From Lachnospiraceae bacterium GAM79 (GTDB taxonomy: Bacteria > Bacillota > Clostridia > Lachnospirales > Lachnospiraceae), in contig AP018536.1 in assembly GCA_003584705.1 (NCBI GenBank), positions 62,001-126,000 of the forward strand: DNA of 64,000 bases, read 5' to 3'. The position numbers and the translations under genes were made by a program. Under the pieces are notes generated by a model that was not told the origin of the DNA, did not search any database, and saw only the letters and a program-made list of their open reading frames with translations. Below are positions 30,620 to 37,540 of this stretch, piece by piece. Numbering within the stretch: position 1 is the stretch's first letter; each line of letters begins with the position of its first letter.

Positions 30620-30645
30620 TTGCGGACAATTTTTTTGACCGCAAA
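30620..30645. repeat. Leader palindrome 1 upstream of ORF6N gene 1
   Basis: TTGCGG, 13 bases, CCGCAAA lies 15-20 bases before the ORF6N gene. The same outer sequence and spacing occur in a perfect palindrome inside that gene (30887-30919). It could be a protein operator or an RNA hairpin near the ribosome site GGAGG at 30652-30656. Confidence 0.6.
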
Positions 30646-30662: not shown

Positions 30663-31712
30663 ATGGCAGAAGATAAAAAGAAAGAAATCGATGTTACAGT
30701 AATAGAAGTAACAGAAGAATATCTAAAAGAAAAACTGTATAAAATTAGGGGTAAAAGGGTATTGCTTGATGCTGATTTAGCAGAGATATATGGCTATGAT
30801 ACGAAGGGATTTAATAGACAGGTAAAAAATAATATTGAAAAATTTGATGAAGATTTTATGTTTGAATTGACAGATGAGGAATTAGAAGATTTGCGGTACA
30901 AAAATTGTACCGCAAATCTAAGTTCAAAAAGTCGTTATAATCCTCATGTATTTACAGAGCAAGGATTATATATGCTGATGACTGTCTTGAAAGGACCGTT
31001 GGCTGTTAAACAGAGCAAGGCATTAATAAGAACCTTTAAGAAAATGAAAGATTACATATTAGAAAATCGTGATTTAATAGGTCAGAGGGAAATACTTCAG
31101 TTAAGCATGGAGACTGCTAACAACAGAATAGAAATTAATAAAATCAATTCAAATATGATATCTTTGGAAAAACAGATTTCAGATGTTGCAGAAGGATTGA
31201 AGGATGTTGTGACAAAATCTGAGTTAGCTGACATGATGAACAGCTTTGTTTCAGATGATGACGAGAAGTGGCTCATGTTTAATGCAAAGTTCAGTAGTGC
31301 GGATGAAGTTTATGAGTCCATTTATAAGCAGGCAAAGTCGTCAATATACGTCGTTGATAATTATATTGGATTAAGAACGCTGGTACATCTTAAAAATTCT
31401 CCTACAGGAGTAAATATTACTTTATTCAGCGATAATGTCGGAAATAATAAACTTCACAATATAGAATTTACGGATTTCTGTAAAGAGTATCCATCCGTAA
31501 AAATATCAATGAAAAAGACCGGCGGTATATTCCATGATCGTTTTATCGTGCTTGATTATGGAACTGATGATGAAAGAGTTTTCTTATGTGGTGCTTCATC
31601 AAAGGATGCAGGGGCAAGAATAACCAGTATTGTTGAAGACTATGGAGTATCTAAATATACCCCGGTTATTGCCACACTGTTGAAAAATCCAACTTTGATT
31701 TTACCACACTAG
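30663..31712 (+). CDS. ORF6N DNA-binding protein with PLD-like C-terminal domain (copy 1)
   Basis: This 349-residue protein has an N-terminal ORF6N domain (IRGKRVLLDADLAEIYGYDT, then FNRQVKNNIEKFDEDFMFEL and VFTEQGLYMLMTVLKG). A helical linker covers about residues 125-205. The C-terminal domain resembles phospholipase-D/nuclease folds: SIYVVDNYIGLRTL, then HDRFIVLDY and FLCGASSKDAG. The classical HKD lysine is replaced by Arg in HDR. ORF6N domains occur in phage and mobile-element DNA-binding proteins. The palindrome 30887-30919 falls in codons for LRYKNCTANL, in the DNA-binding domain. The second copy lies 4 kb downstream. Confidence 0.85.
   Translation: MAEDKKKEIDVTVIEVTEEYLKEKLYKIRGKRVLLDADLAEIYGYDTKGFNRQVKNNIEKFDEDFMFELTDEELEDLRYKNCTANLSSKSRYNPHVFTEQGLYMLMTVLKGPLAVKQSKALIRTFKKMKDYILENRDLIGQREILQLSMETANNRIEINKINSNMISLEKQISDVAEGLKDVVTKSELADMMNSFVSDDDEKWLMFNAKFSSADEVYESIYKQAKSSIYVVDNYIGLRTLVHLKNSPTGVNITLFSDNVGNNKLHNIEFTDFCKEYPSVKISMKKTGGIFHDRFIVLDYGTDDERVFLCGASSKDAGARITSIVEDYGVSKYTPVIATLLKNPTLILPH
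30887..30919. repeat. In-gene palindrome 1 (ORF6N copy 1)
   Basis: A perfect 15-3-15 palindrome (AGATTTGCGGTACAA, AAA, and its complement) lies inside the ORF6N coding sequence. Its outer part matches the leader palindrome at 30620-30645. Confidence 0.9.
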
Positions 31713-34296: not shown

Positions 34297-34342
34297 GATA
34301 TAAAAAAGTTCGAAGAACTTTTGTTTTCGAACTTTTTTATAT
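34297..34342 (+). terminator. Terminator after WYL operon
   Basis: AAAAAAGTTCGAA and TTCGAACTTTTTT form a long stem with a short loop; the flanking A- and T-runs let it work on both strands. The rest of 34228-34425 is AT-rich promoter sequence for the next gene. Confidence 0.75.
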
Positions 34343-34425: not shown

Positions 34426-34787
34426 ATGACTATCAGTGAAAGAATATTAAAGGTATTAAAAGACAGAAATATGACGCAGGTTGAGTTTGCAAAACAGGTT
34501 GGTATTGCGACCAGTACGATCAGCGAATGGAAGAAAAAAAGACCAATCCTACAGCCGATAAGATTATGGATATCTGCAATGTATTACAGATTACCCCGGA
34601 GCAGCTTCTTACCGGAAAGGGAATTGAAGACGAGGAAGAGATTGTTGCGGCAAGCCCGGAGAGTCGGTTTACACCTTATGACATTCAACTGATTGAAGAC
34701 TACCATGGCCTTAAAGAAGAGCAGAAGAAGAGACTGATGGCTTATGTGGAGGCTTTGAAGAAAATAGAAAGCTTGGAAAACATGTAG
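34426..34787 (+). pseudogene. XRE-family regulator with a frameshift in a poly-A run
   Basis: The frame from 34426 gives a helix-turn-helix (RNMTQVEFAKQVGIATSTIS, then EWKKK). It changes after seven A at 34534-34540. The expected continuation (KKTNPTADKIMDICNVLQIT, then PEQLLTGKGIEDE) is in the +1 frame from 34527. One extra A would restore SEWKKKKTNPTAD and a protein of about 121 residues. It may be a true mutation, a sequencing error, phase variation or transcriptional slippage. The ORF6N copy 2 follows 40 bp downstream. Confidence 0.8.
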
Positions 34788-34789
34788 TT

Positions 34790-34814
34790 GTGAAGTCGCA
34801 AATTGCGACTTCAC
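34790..34814. repeat. Leader palindrome 2 upstream of ORF6N gene 2
   Basis: A perfect 12-1-12 palindrome (GTGAAGTCGCAA, A, complement) lies 14 bases before the ORF6N copy 2 start and directly beside its ribosome site GAAAGG. It is the exact reverse complement of the palindrome inside the gene at 35032-35056. Confidence 0.92.
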
Positions 34815-34827
34815 GAAAGGACGGTTT

Positions 34828-35841
34828 ATGGGAGAAGTATTAGAATTAAATACAGTAGATAATATCATAAATAGTATTTACATAATTCGTGGACAGCAAG
34901 TTATGCTGGATTCTGATTTAGCAAAAATATATGGCTATGAGGTAAAACGATTAAATGAACAGGTAAAAAGAAACATTAAGAGATTTCCGGAAGATTTTAT
35001 GTTTCAGCTAACAAGAGAAGAAATTGATTTCGTGAAGTCGCAATTTGCGACTTCACGGATTACGTCTTTGTTTGAAGGACAAGAAGGTGGTCGAAGAAAA
35101 CTACCATATGTTTTCACAGAGCAGGGAATTTATATGTTAGCTACAGTACTGAAAGGAGAATTAGCAGAACAGCAAAGTATTTTTATCATGCGTGCATTCA
35201 AAGAAATGCGCCATTATATCAGACAGAACAGGCAGTTTGTCACACAATCGGAAATGAATCTGGTTACGGCAAAAGTATCGGAATTATCTGTTCAGATGGC
35301 AGGTGTAGTAGATCGGCAGAAACAAACAGAAAAATCAATGGAAGAGATTCGAAAGAGCATTGATGTTATGAATGAGAATTTTATAACAGAGAAAGATTTC
35401 AAAAATTTTGTAATCTATAAGGGACAGAAGTTTGAAGCAGATGCAGCTTACATAGATATTTATCAACAGGCAGCAAAATCTATTTATGTGGTGGATGATT
35501 ATATGAATACCAAGACATTACAACTTCTGTCGCAAAAACAATCCGGTGTTGAGGTAATTCTTTTTACAGAGAATGGTCATGGGAAAAAAGGTTTTCTCAC
35601 AAGTGCTGTGGTCAATGATTTTATAAATCAATATCCAACACTTAGAATCAAACCCAATCCAGATTGTCATGATAGATGGATTGTTCTTGATTATGAATTA
35701 CCTACGGAGGCAGTATATCATTGTGGTGCGTCAAGCAAAGATGCTGGTAAAAAGTTATGTGCAATAAATAAAGTGGATTCTGTTCAAATGATTCATCCAG
35801 TAATAGATAGATTACTTTTATTGCCAGATAAACAGATATAA
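34828..35841 (+). CDS. ORF6N DNA-binding protein with PLD-like C-terminal domain (copy 2)
   Basis: The 337-residue paralogue of the gene at 30663 has the ORF6N domain at about residues 10-115: IIRGQQVMLDSDLAKIYGYE, RFPEDFMFQLTREEIDFVKS, and YVFTEQGIYMLATVLKGELA. A coiled linker precedes the C-terminal PLD-like domain (SIYVVDDYMNTKTLQLL, CHDRWIVLDY, YHCGASSKDAG). As in copy 1, HDR replaces the usual HKD. The segment VKSQFATSR is encoded by a 25-bp palindrome that recurs in the leader. It follows the frameshifted XRE gene and may share its transcript. Confidence 0.87.
   Translation: MGEVLELNTVDNIINSIYIIRGQQVMLDSDLAKIYGYEVKRLNEQVKRNIKRFPEDFMFQLTREEIDFVKSQFATSRITSLFEGQEGGRRKLPYVFTEQGIYMLATVLKGELAEQQSIFIMRAFKEMRHYIRQNRQFVTQSEMNLVTAKVSELSVQMAGVVDRQKQTEKSMEEIRKSIDVMNENFITEKDFKNFVIYKGQKFEADAAYIDIYQQAAKSIYVVDDYMNTKTLQLLSQKQSGVEVILFTENGHGKKGFLTSAVVNDFINQYPTLRIKPNPDCHDRWIVLDYELPTEAVYHCGASSKDAGKKLCAINKVDSVQMIHPVIDRLLLLPDKQI
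35032..35056. repeat. In-gene palindrome 2 (ORF6N copy 2)
   Basis: GTGAAGTCGCAA, T, and complement lies inside the coding sequence for VKSQFATS. It extends one base pair further on each side and equals the leader palindrome 34790-34814 read on the other strand. Confidence 0.95.
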
Positions 35842-36928: not shown

Positions 36929-37402
36929 ATGGTCATACGATTTGCAAAAGAAAATGAATTAATACGGGTAAATGAATTAAGAAAACAGGTAAATGACCTG
37001 CATGTTGAAGGAAAATCCGAGATTTTCAAGGCCGGTTTTAATAAGGAATTACAAGATCATGTATATACCATCTGGAAAGATCTCGAGCAGAAAATTATTG
37101 TGGCGGAATCGGAAGGAATGATCTGTGGTTTTGCTGTACTTCATCATATTCATAAACCGGAAACTCCTTTTATGCAGGAACGTGATTTTATGGATATTGA
37201 TGAATTCTGTGTGGATAAAAAATACCGAAGGCAGGGAATTGCATCGGAAATGATAGCATTTATAAAAGCTTATACAAAGGAGCAGGGAATAAATCGTATG
37301 GAACTTAATATGTGGGAGTTTAATGAAGATGCACTTGCCTTTTATGAAGCAGTAGGATTCAAAACATACCGAAGATATATGGAAATGATGTTAAAAATCT
37401 GA
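36929..37402 (+). CDS. GNAT-family acetyltransferase
   Basis: The ATG at 36929 has AAGAGGTG nine bases upstream and is preferred over a GTG at 36917. The protein of about 157 residues has the GNAT core: IIVAESEGMICGFAVLH (strand 4), then FMDIDEFCVDKKYRRQGIAS with the acetyl-CoA pyrophosphate loop (R-R-Q-G-I-A), and LNMWEFNEDALAFYEAVGF. The acceptor is unknown. It is divergent from the AraC gene, which may regulate it. Confidence 0.9.
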   Translation: MVIRFAKENELIRVNELRKQVNDLHVEGKSEIFKAGFNKELQDHVYTIWKDLEQKIIVAESEGMICGFAVLHHIHKPETPFMQERDFMDIDEFCVDKKYRRQGIASEMIAFIKAYTKEQGINRMELNMWEFNEDALAFYEAVGFKTYRRYMEMMLKI

Positions 37403-37421
37403 ATAGACAAGGAAAACGAAA

Positions 37422-37540
37422 TATGGGTAGGTTTCCAGAAGACTTTATGTTTCAGTTTACGTAAACCGAATATGATAATCTGCGGGCCAAAATGTCATCG
37501 AAATCAATTTTCAGTTTTACAGAGACAATCCAATCATCAA
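37422..37540 (+). pseudogene. ORF6N gene remnant
   Basis: A short stretch reads MGRFPEDFMFQFT, stop, TEYDNLRAKMSS. It matches RFPEDFMFQLTREEIDF in ORF6N copy 2 at the same domain position, but an in-frame stop and loss of the rest show it is a fragment. It lies between the GNAT gene and the glycosyltransferase gene and is the third trace of this family within 7 kb. Confidence 0.7.

Follow-up and report, generated by a model that had tools for sequence, protein, structure and literature searches.

ORF6N genes carry, within the codons of the ORF6N domain, a palindrome whose bases follow the residues at two positions of a predicted helix outside the palindrome-coded segment: residue 48 predicts base d3 and residue 44 predicts base d4, where d is the distance from the palindrome dyad and bases are read on the left strand. 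This covariation makes it probable that the ORF6N HTH binds its own in-gene palindrome as a symmetric dimer, with autoregulation as the likely outcome. The features discussed here lie in a window, the whole stretch of DNA that was analysed, of 64,000 nt from Lachnospiraceae bacterium GAM79 (contig AP018536.1, positions 62,001–126,000, forward strand):

30620–30644, no strand: imperfect leader palindrome of gene 1, with outer arms TTGCGG/CCGCAA, the same as in gene 1 itself
30663–31712, plus strand: ORF6N gene 1, with helix residues G41, R44 and N48
30887–30919, no strand: in-gene palindrome of gene 1, 15-3-15, AGATTTGCGGTACAAAAATTGTACCGCAAATCT, with C at d4 and A at d3 as predicted
34426–34787, plus strand: Cro/CI-type HTH gene upstream of gene 2, in two frames split at an A run near 34527
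34790–34814, no strand: leader palindrome of gene 2, 12-1-12, GTGAAGTCGCAAATTGCGACTTCAC, an optional second site; d5d4d3 is CGC, matching the prediction from the gene 2 helix
34815–34822, plus strand: probable ribosome-binding site GAAAGGAC (GAAAGGA), assigned by eye, abutting the 3' end of the leader palindrome
34828–35841, plus strand: ORF6N gene 2, 337 aa, with an N-terminal ORF6N domain, long helices and a C-terminal PLD-like domain
34942–34971, plus strand: predicted recognition-helix codons of gene 2, residues 39–48 (VKRLNEQVKR), from AlphaFold helices and covariation with the palindrome
34948–34950, 34957–34959 and 34969–34971, plus strand: codons of R41, E44 and R48 in that helix
35031–35057, no strand: in-gene palindrome of gene 2, 13-1-13, in the codons FVKSQFATSR, the predicted cognate site

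Palindromes in the codons of the ORF6N domain

Gene 2 belongs to the Pfam ORF6N family PF10543 (129.7 bits; cut-off 27.8). A sequence-only reading of this DNA had placed a 12-1-12 palindrome in its leader at 34790–34814 and a copy at 35032–35056, within ORF6N-domain codons; both the coordinates and the form hold, and the in-gene copy falls in codons for (F)VKSQFATS(R). The inner 25 bp of the in-gene palindrome (35032–35056) read GTGAAGTCGCAATTTGCGACTTCAC, and the leader and in-gene copies form an inverted match of 29 bp with no mismatches (34790–34818 against 35028–35056). Described in that reading as an exact reverse complement, the arrangement amounts to the same palindrome occurring twice, because both copies are palindromic and differ at the central base only. 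Allowing up to 3 mismatches, the window contains the core GAAGTCGCAANTTGCGACTTC at two places, where 100 dinucleotide-preserving shuffles give an expectation of 0; a shorter core, AAGTCGCAANTTGCGACTT, occurs at the same two places alone in the whole 4.08-Mb genome, again with up to 3 mismatches. A promoter scan around the gene 2 leader returned one promoter-like site, under the shuffle mean of 3.2.

The in-gene palindromes of genes 1 and 2 differ from each other. With up to 3 mismatches allowed, the 25-base core of the gene 1 palindrome has no second place in the genome, and no further gene contains the core palindrome of either gene. The gene 1 leader palindrome pairs at fewer than 10 of 12 positions and is therefore outside the 62 leaders counted below; its d4 base, read by eye, is A, against the rule. 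A third ORF6N gene, broken and with an internal stop codon, lies at 37363–37524 and has no palindrome remaining by eye.

The Cro/CI-type HTH gene upstream of gene 2, which has counterparts upstream in loci L006 and L067, raises the alternative that another regulator, such as this HTH protein, reads the palindrome. Its probability is negligible: the gene is frameshifted in this genome, annotated plasmid loci have other neighbours beside their ORF6N genes, and the palindrome bases track ORF6N residues. The copy in the window is either frameshifted or carries a sequencing error, since the relatives in L006 and L067 read through the A run. Upstream of the HTH gene, at 34298–34342, there is also a 17-bp perfect inverted repeat, ATATAAAAAAGTTCGAA/TTCGAACTTTTTTATAT.

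The in-gene palindrome is a feature of the family. In a first set of 81 genes, consisting of the window gene and the top 80 among 575 homologous stretches from a scan of genome contigs, a perfect palindrome with arms of at least 10, upstream of a conserved FTEQG motif, was present in 67, and in those 67 genes the observed arm was reached 0 to 4 times per 2000 synonymous-codon shuffles. The longest of these palindromes is 22-1-22 (L050). A larger set held 191 genes (129 + 62 rows, two mis-anchored ones, L176_1 and L209_1, included), of which 187 have an open frame. These are mostly from Lachnospiraceae, with others from further phyla, plasmids and phages; the set takes in Spirochaetota, Bacteroidota, Campylobacterota, Fusobacteriota, Legionella plasmids, phage records and viral contigs. 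At least 10 of 12 positions are paired in 177 of the 187 genes, compared with 97 of 3740 synonymous-codon shuffles, and all 12 are paired in 82 genes, compared with none of the 3740. In several distant ORF6N genes the perfect arms are short, at 3 to 7. Chance or codon bias as the source of the palindrome is ruled out by these synonymous shuffles, and the constraint extends beyond the codons. The palindrome sequence varies among ORF6N genes while the symmetry is retained.

Some domains carry more than one copy. Tandem in-frame palindromes, two to three per ORF6N domain, are seen in L020, L046, L048, L050 and L055, where the loop is lengthened by KSQxATS-like repeats. A Segatella plasmid gene (L143:1340–1680) has three palindromes, in the leader, in an N-terminal extension (AACTGGTC arms) and in the domain, all three readable in the VANCD/VTNCD frame, and a Parabacteroides plasmid (L144:1504–3237) has three tandem ORF6N genes.

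Varying sequence with symmetry kept, tandem copies and the patchy occurrence of ORF6N genes (88 of the 397 genomes of the family and 4 of the 249 of the phylum) would also suit a mutational palindrome with no binding role, produced by template switching or as a palindromic mobile unit, in which residue–base correlation would arise by joint inheritance or exchange of short blocks. We give this explanation a very small probability. The palindrome class is not dispersed: among 299 family genomes, 18 contain the pattern GAAGTCRCAANTTGYGACTTC, at 23 places in all, and none contains the reversed pattern. A single locus was inspected in each of these genomes, the window's own counting among the 18; 14 have an ORF6N match at or beside the palindrome, two (L092, L097) have decayed ORF6N remnants by eye, and at the other two (L096, L100) the palindrome stands alone between genes. 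A dispersed palindromic repeat of the REP or RPE type is not supported, with two places in the window's own genome and 16 of the 18 family loci being ORF6N genes or remnants. Viral contigs yielded five palindrome stretches, three in ORF6N genes on contigs already in the homologue set and two intergenic; a viral-contig scan for one TTGCGG-class palindrome gave no matches. The intergenic copies at L096, L100, L132 and L133 may be further targets; the copy at L096 has a terminator-like T run after it, and that at L132 precedes a ribosome-site-like AGGAGG.

Covariation of helix residues and palindrome bases

The AlphaFold model (33 sequences; mean pLDDT 70.6, pTM 0.44) has helices at residues 28–35 and 39–48, the second of which contains residues 41, 44 and 48. 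Read from this predicted secondary structure, the two helices would constitute an HTH.

The residue–base rules were derived from 121 genes, three of them without an aligned helix; 8 of 129 genes lacking the anchor were left out (L012, L039, L047, L066, L113, L125, L139 and L158). In this derivation set, R48 occurs with C at d3 in 94 of 95 genes and N48 with A in 20 of 21; the assignment of H48 and S48 to A rests on one gene each. At d4, E44 occurs with G (48/49), Q44 with A (56/59) and K44 with C (1/1), whereas R44 occurs with C on the left arm in 8 of 8 genes and on both arms in 4. The rules were then applied to a test set of 60 genes outside the rule derivation, each with a shared 6-mer fraction below 0.8 to every gene of the derivation set (of 89 loci, 75 supplied 77 distinct rows, from which 15 near-derivation rows and the mis-anchored L176_1 and L209_1 were removed). 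The d3 base was right in all 60 (R48 with C, 36/36; N48 with A, 24/24), and d4 followed residue 44 for E with G (14/14), Q with A (22/23) and K with C (1/1); for R44, C was present on the left arm in 21 of 22 genes and on both arms in 10 of 22. Across 178 genes, d3 is right on both arms in 176, and d4, predicted as G, A or C from E, Q or R, is right on both arms in 156, on one arm in 18 and on neither in 4. The four failures at d4 are L026 (A44), L055 and L073 (Q44 with G) and L119, which fails both rules because its palindrome is mis-centred.

R44 sites are often asymmetric, with C on the left and A on the right in 11 of 22 test genes. A post hoc observation is that d5 is G in R44 genes (left-arm d5d4 is GC in 28/30), versus C in E44 and Q44 genes. 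The in-gene palindrome of gene 2 obeys the rule, with C at d3 for R48 and G at d4 for E44; in gene 1, d5 is A, not the G usual for R44 genes.

The relationship holds where the palindrome is read in another frame. Ten such 'frame 2' genes were called and seven accepted, L119 being mis-centred and L039 and L047 having broken frames. The seven (L124, L143, L149, L155, L156 and L157 from the derivation set and L218 from the test set) encode VANCD, VENFD or IKKFD-like peptides where SQxAT is otherwise encoded, and all seven obey both rules. Coevolution of residues 44 and 48 with the palindrome-coded residues 72 and 74 was rejected, because these genes have different amino acids there and keep the same rule. 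The sequence-only reading had proposed a protein whose DNA-binding domain has codons that double as its binding site, and the covariation, which also holds outside the derivation set and in both reading frames, strongly supports that proposal. From this covariation alone we infer sequence-specific DNA binding by ORF6N.

Normalised to base entropy, the mutual information between residue 48 and d3 is 0.92; residue 44 reaches 0.91 with d5 and 0.87 with d4, residue 41 reaches 0.66 with d4, and residue 40 reaches 0.63 with d7. The median of the best values over residues is 0.14, and residues 43, 45, 46, 47 and 49 stay at or below 0.19. Background with d3 amounts to 0.35 for residue 42 and 0.38–0.42 for residues 105, 118, 120, 121 and 129; part of the covariation is therefore attributable to common descent. 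Residues 85–91 covary with d8–d12 (0.51–0.80), a signal that may reflect wing contacts or coupling to palindrome-coded residues.

Descent was addressed on a tree built from 96 columns, excluding the helix and the palindrome-coded segment, with 3 of 181 genes (L046, L048, L050) lacking an aligned helix. Changes on this tree number 18 at residue 48 and 18 at d3, 35 between E and Q and 34 at d4, and 17 to or from R/K and 18 at the left C. Independent pairs on supported branches change in the same direction for 48–d3 (6 same, 0 opposite; p 0.031), for 44–d4 (6 same, 0 opposite, 1 without difference; median p 0.031) and for R/K–C (5 same, 0 opposite; p 0.0625), these informative pairs being 17 in total and the three tests possibly sharing branches.

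The weak covariation of residues far from the helix with d3 would agree with the mutational origin considered above. Against that origin, the strong correlations at d3–d5 are confined to residues 41, 44 and 48 of one helix, each at one or two bases, and the code fits known residue–base chemistry, recurs on independent pairs and holds across frames. Gln–adenine and Glu–cytosine are known pairings. Arginine bonding to guanine and asparagine to adenine are described in the available text of a MerR-family paper (PMC5045206).

Leader palindromes

The in-gene site is the constant partner, nearly universal among the genes examined, and the leader is an optional second site. A leader palindrome with at least 10 of 12 pairs is present in 62 of 189 ORF6N genes, some loci ending short of the stretch searched. 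In 60 distinct genes, the best leader and the in-gene site of the same gene agree at 16.13 of 26 positions versus 14.23 (sd 0.33) after permutation, a value reached in 0 of 20,000 permutations; the permutation keeps the relatedness among genes, and local copying would yield the same match. Leaders match their own in-gene palindrome better than those of other genes, a comparison suggested in the sequence-only reading. The predicted d5d4d3 triplet is present in 20 of 35 ORF6N-type leaders (permuted mean 11.1, sd 2.2; 3/20,000), and 15 of the 35 are without the triplet predicted by their own helix. Genes with unusual specificities are informative here: in L139 (R44 R48) the leader CATCGAGATGCCAATTTGGCATCTCGATG is near-identical in the gene (24/26), and in L206 and L224 the leader agrees with the in-gene site at 25 of 26 positions. 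The claim that the two sites must evolve together is borne out to the extent that the own-gene match beats permutation, and it is weakened by the 62 of 189 genes with a leader and the 20 of 35 leaders with the triplet.

A common helical phase between leader and in-gene sites was considered and dropped, spacings such as 242, 256, 259, 265 and 293 bp showing none by eye. A different leader palindrome, approximately GTGCAACAG-N-CTGTTGCAC, is located at about −29 to −55 in L016, L021, L026 and L066 and is perhaps the operator of another regulator. Further upstream, at about −170 to −305, the palindrome TTTATGCAATGCATAAA recurs in L008, L009, L011, L013, L018, L019 and others.

The palindromes might instead act in mRNA as hairpins, the leader arm pairing with the in-gene arm and hiding or freeing the ribosome site. 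In the window, the predicted RNA fold does pair the leader copy with the in-gene copy (MFE −87 kcal/mol; z −7.2 relative to shuffles) and the ribosome site adjoins the leader copy; among leaders, G–T mismatches (19) outnumber A–C mismatches (10). At the 122 in-gene sites, however, mismatches are 19 G–T and 23 A–C, with no wobble bias on the mRNA strand. Moreover, 127 of 189 genes have no leader palindrome within the stretch searched, where some loci end short, and an RNA role would not predict the associations R48–C, N48–A, E44–G and Q44–A. Pairing of the two arms, as raised in the sequence-only reading, is therefore disfavoured as a general explanation by the missing wobble bias and may occur in the window; overall, an RNA role is quite improbable.

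The C-terminal domain, probable autoregulation and known systems

Residues 186–337 of the gene 2 protein were compared with solved folds. The C-terminal model has the PLD-like fold found in TrmB-type regulators, and among its closest structural matches are the nuclease NucT (Z 11.9), the sugar-binding domain of TrmB (2f5t; Z 11.7; rmsd 3.3 over 126 residues) and the nuclease Nuc (Z 10.9). Other PLD-like folds tie with TrmB, so the fold match does not single it out, and TrmB sequence models gave no match for gene 2 (Pfam, E 0.001: ORF6N alone). The PLD HxK(x4)D motif is absent: H281, D282, R283 and D288 are invariant in 33 aligned sequences, and the replacement of the HxK lysine by arginine in 33 of 33 argues against normal PLD catalysis. 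Gene 2 matches seven PHROG families, all in the category transcription regulation, with anti-repressor families including phrog_4792 (E 1e-22).

The protein might bind its own palindrome for other ends: the PLD-like domain could cut, nick or recombine DNA there, or binding could help the gene to spread or mark it. In structure, the C-terminal model resembles the PLD nucleases NucT and Nuc no less than TrmB, and the tandem in-frame palindromes in L020, L046, L048, L050 and L055 favour a role other than repression. Such ends are nevertheless unlikely. The invariant arginine at H281-D282-R283 speaks against cutting or nicking. Cutting is also hard to reconcile with an ORF6N gene that retains an intact site, in contrast to homing endonuclease genes, in which the own site is not intact. 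All seven PHROG families matching gene 2, being families of transcription regulation, count against a non-repression role.

Autoregulation is the preferred reading. The ORF6N HTH would bind, as a symmetric dimer, the palindrome in the codons of a loop (about residues 67–78) of the same domain. Residue 48 would read pair 3 from the dyad (R with C, N with A, on the left strand) and residue 44 pairs 4–5 (d5d4: E with CG, Q with CA, R with GC), aided by residue 41 and perhaps 40; reader and site, within about 120 bp, would change together. When abundant, the protein would occupy the in-gene site as a dimer, acting as a roadblock, together with the leader operator where one is present, and its own transcription would be blocked. 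For the C-terminal PLD-like domain, the simpler guess is a part in signal sensing or in dimerisation.

Several known systems resemble parts of this arrangement. Escherichia coli PurR has operators in its leader and in its coding region (purRo1/purRo2). An ORF6N gene with a leader palindrome would likewise have a second operator within its codons; PurR is a single gene, whereas ORF6N is a domain family in which the in-gene site covaries with its reader. Rickettsia palindromic elements are located in frame within protein genes and are scattered over unrelated genes. ORF6N palindromes are likewise in frame in protein genes but stay with ORF6N genes at the loci examined. We know of no in-gene operator for TrmB or TrmBL2. 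These archaeal regulators (2f5t, 3qph, 5box) share with gene 2 a PLD-like C-terminal domain in a DNA-binding, or here putatively DNA-binding, regulator; in gene 2, unlike TrmB, ORF6N is the only Pfam match. Phage ORF6N/KilA-N anti-repressors (PHROGs; FNU1, PMC6591296) have the domain in common with the window proteins, which match their families; they are known by annotation, and the available text of the FNU1 paper mentions no operator (PMC6591296).

Family-wide codes obtained through local regulation or residue–site correlation are already known, and the in-codon site is what differs here, as far as the available text of the two papers goes. For the LacI family, a recognition code was found through autoregulation, relating two helix residues to two bases of local sites (PMC2978694); those sites were sought in non-coding DNA beside the gene, whereas the predicted ORF6N site lies within the codons of the DNA-binding domain. 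The MerR study (PMC5045206) made the same kind of residue–base inference in another family, and its available text does not mention the domain's own codons. Among literature on ORF6N and palindromes, the FNU1 phage paper (PMC6591296) has 'palindrom' solely in the CRISPR name in its available text. The sequence-only reading knew of no description of a self-encoded site, and the mostly open-access literature searched, in the portions available, for in-gene or own-coding operators and KilA-N palindromes likewise gave none for ORF6N, a weak form of absence.

It seems rather likely, on the strength of these genomic patterns, that ORF6N is a self-addressed module: about 120 bp would encode both the recognition helix and its operator in overlapping codons, and selection at the DNA level would keep the address through changes of amino acid, specificity and even reading frame. 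An address under selection on the DNA would therefore accompany the domain when genes are transferred and domains shuffled. For most regulators the cognate site is unknown, which makes protein–DNA recognition codes hard to establish; each ORF6N gene seems to carry its own site, so that the family code would be readable from genome sequences and testable by single point changes. If true, this would be a clean case of overlapping protein and operator codes, jointly selected across phyla; it would also hint at a way for a mobile regulator to retain its own control wherever it is inserted.
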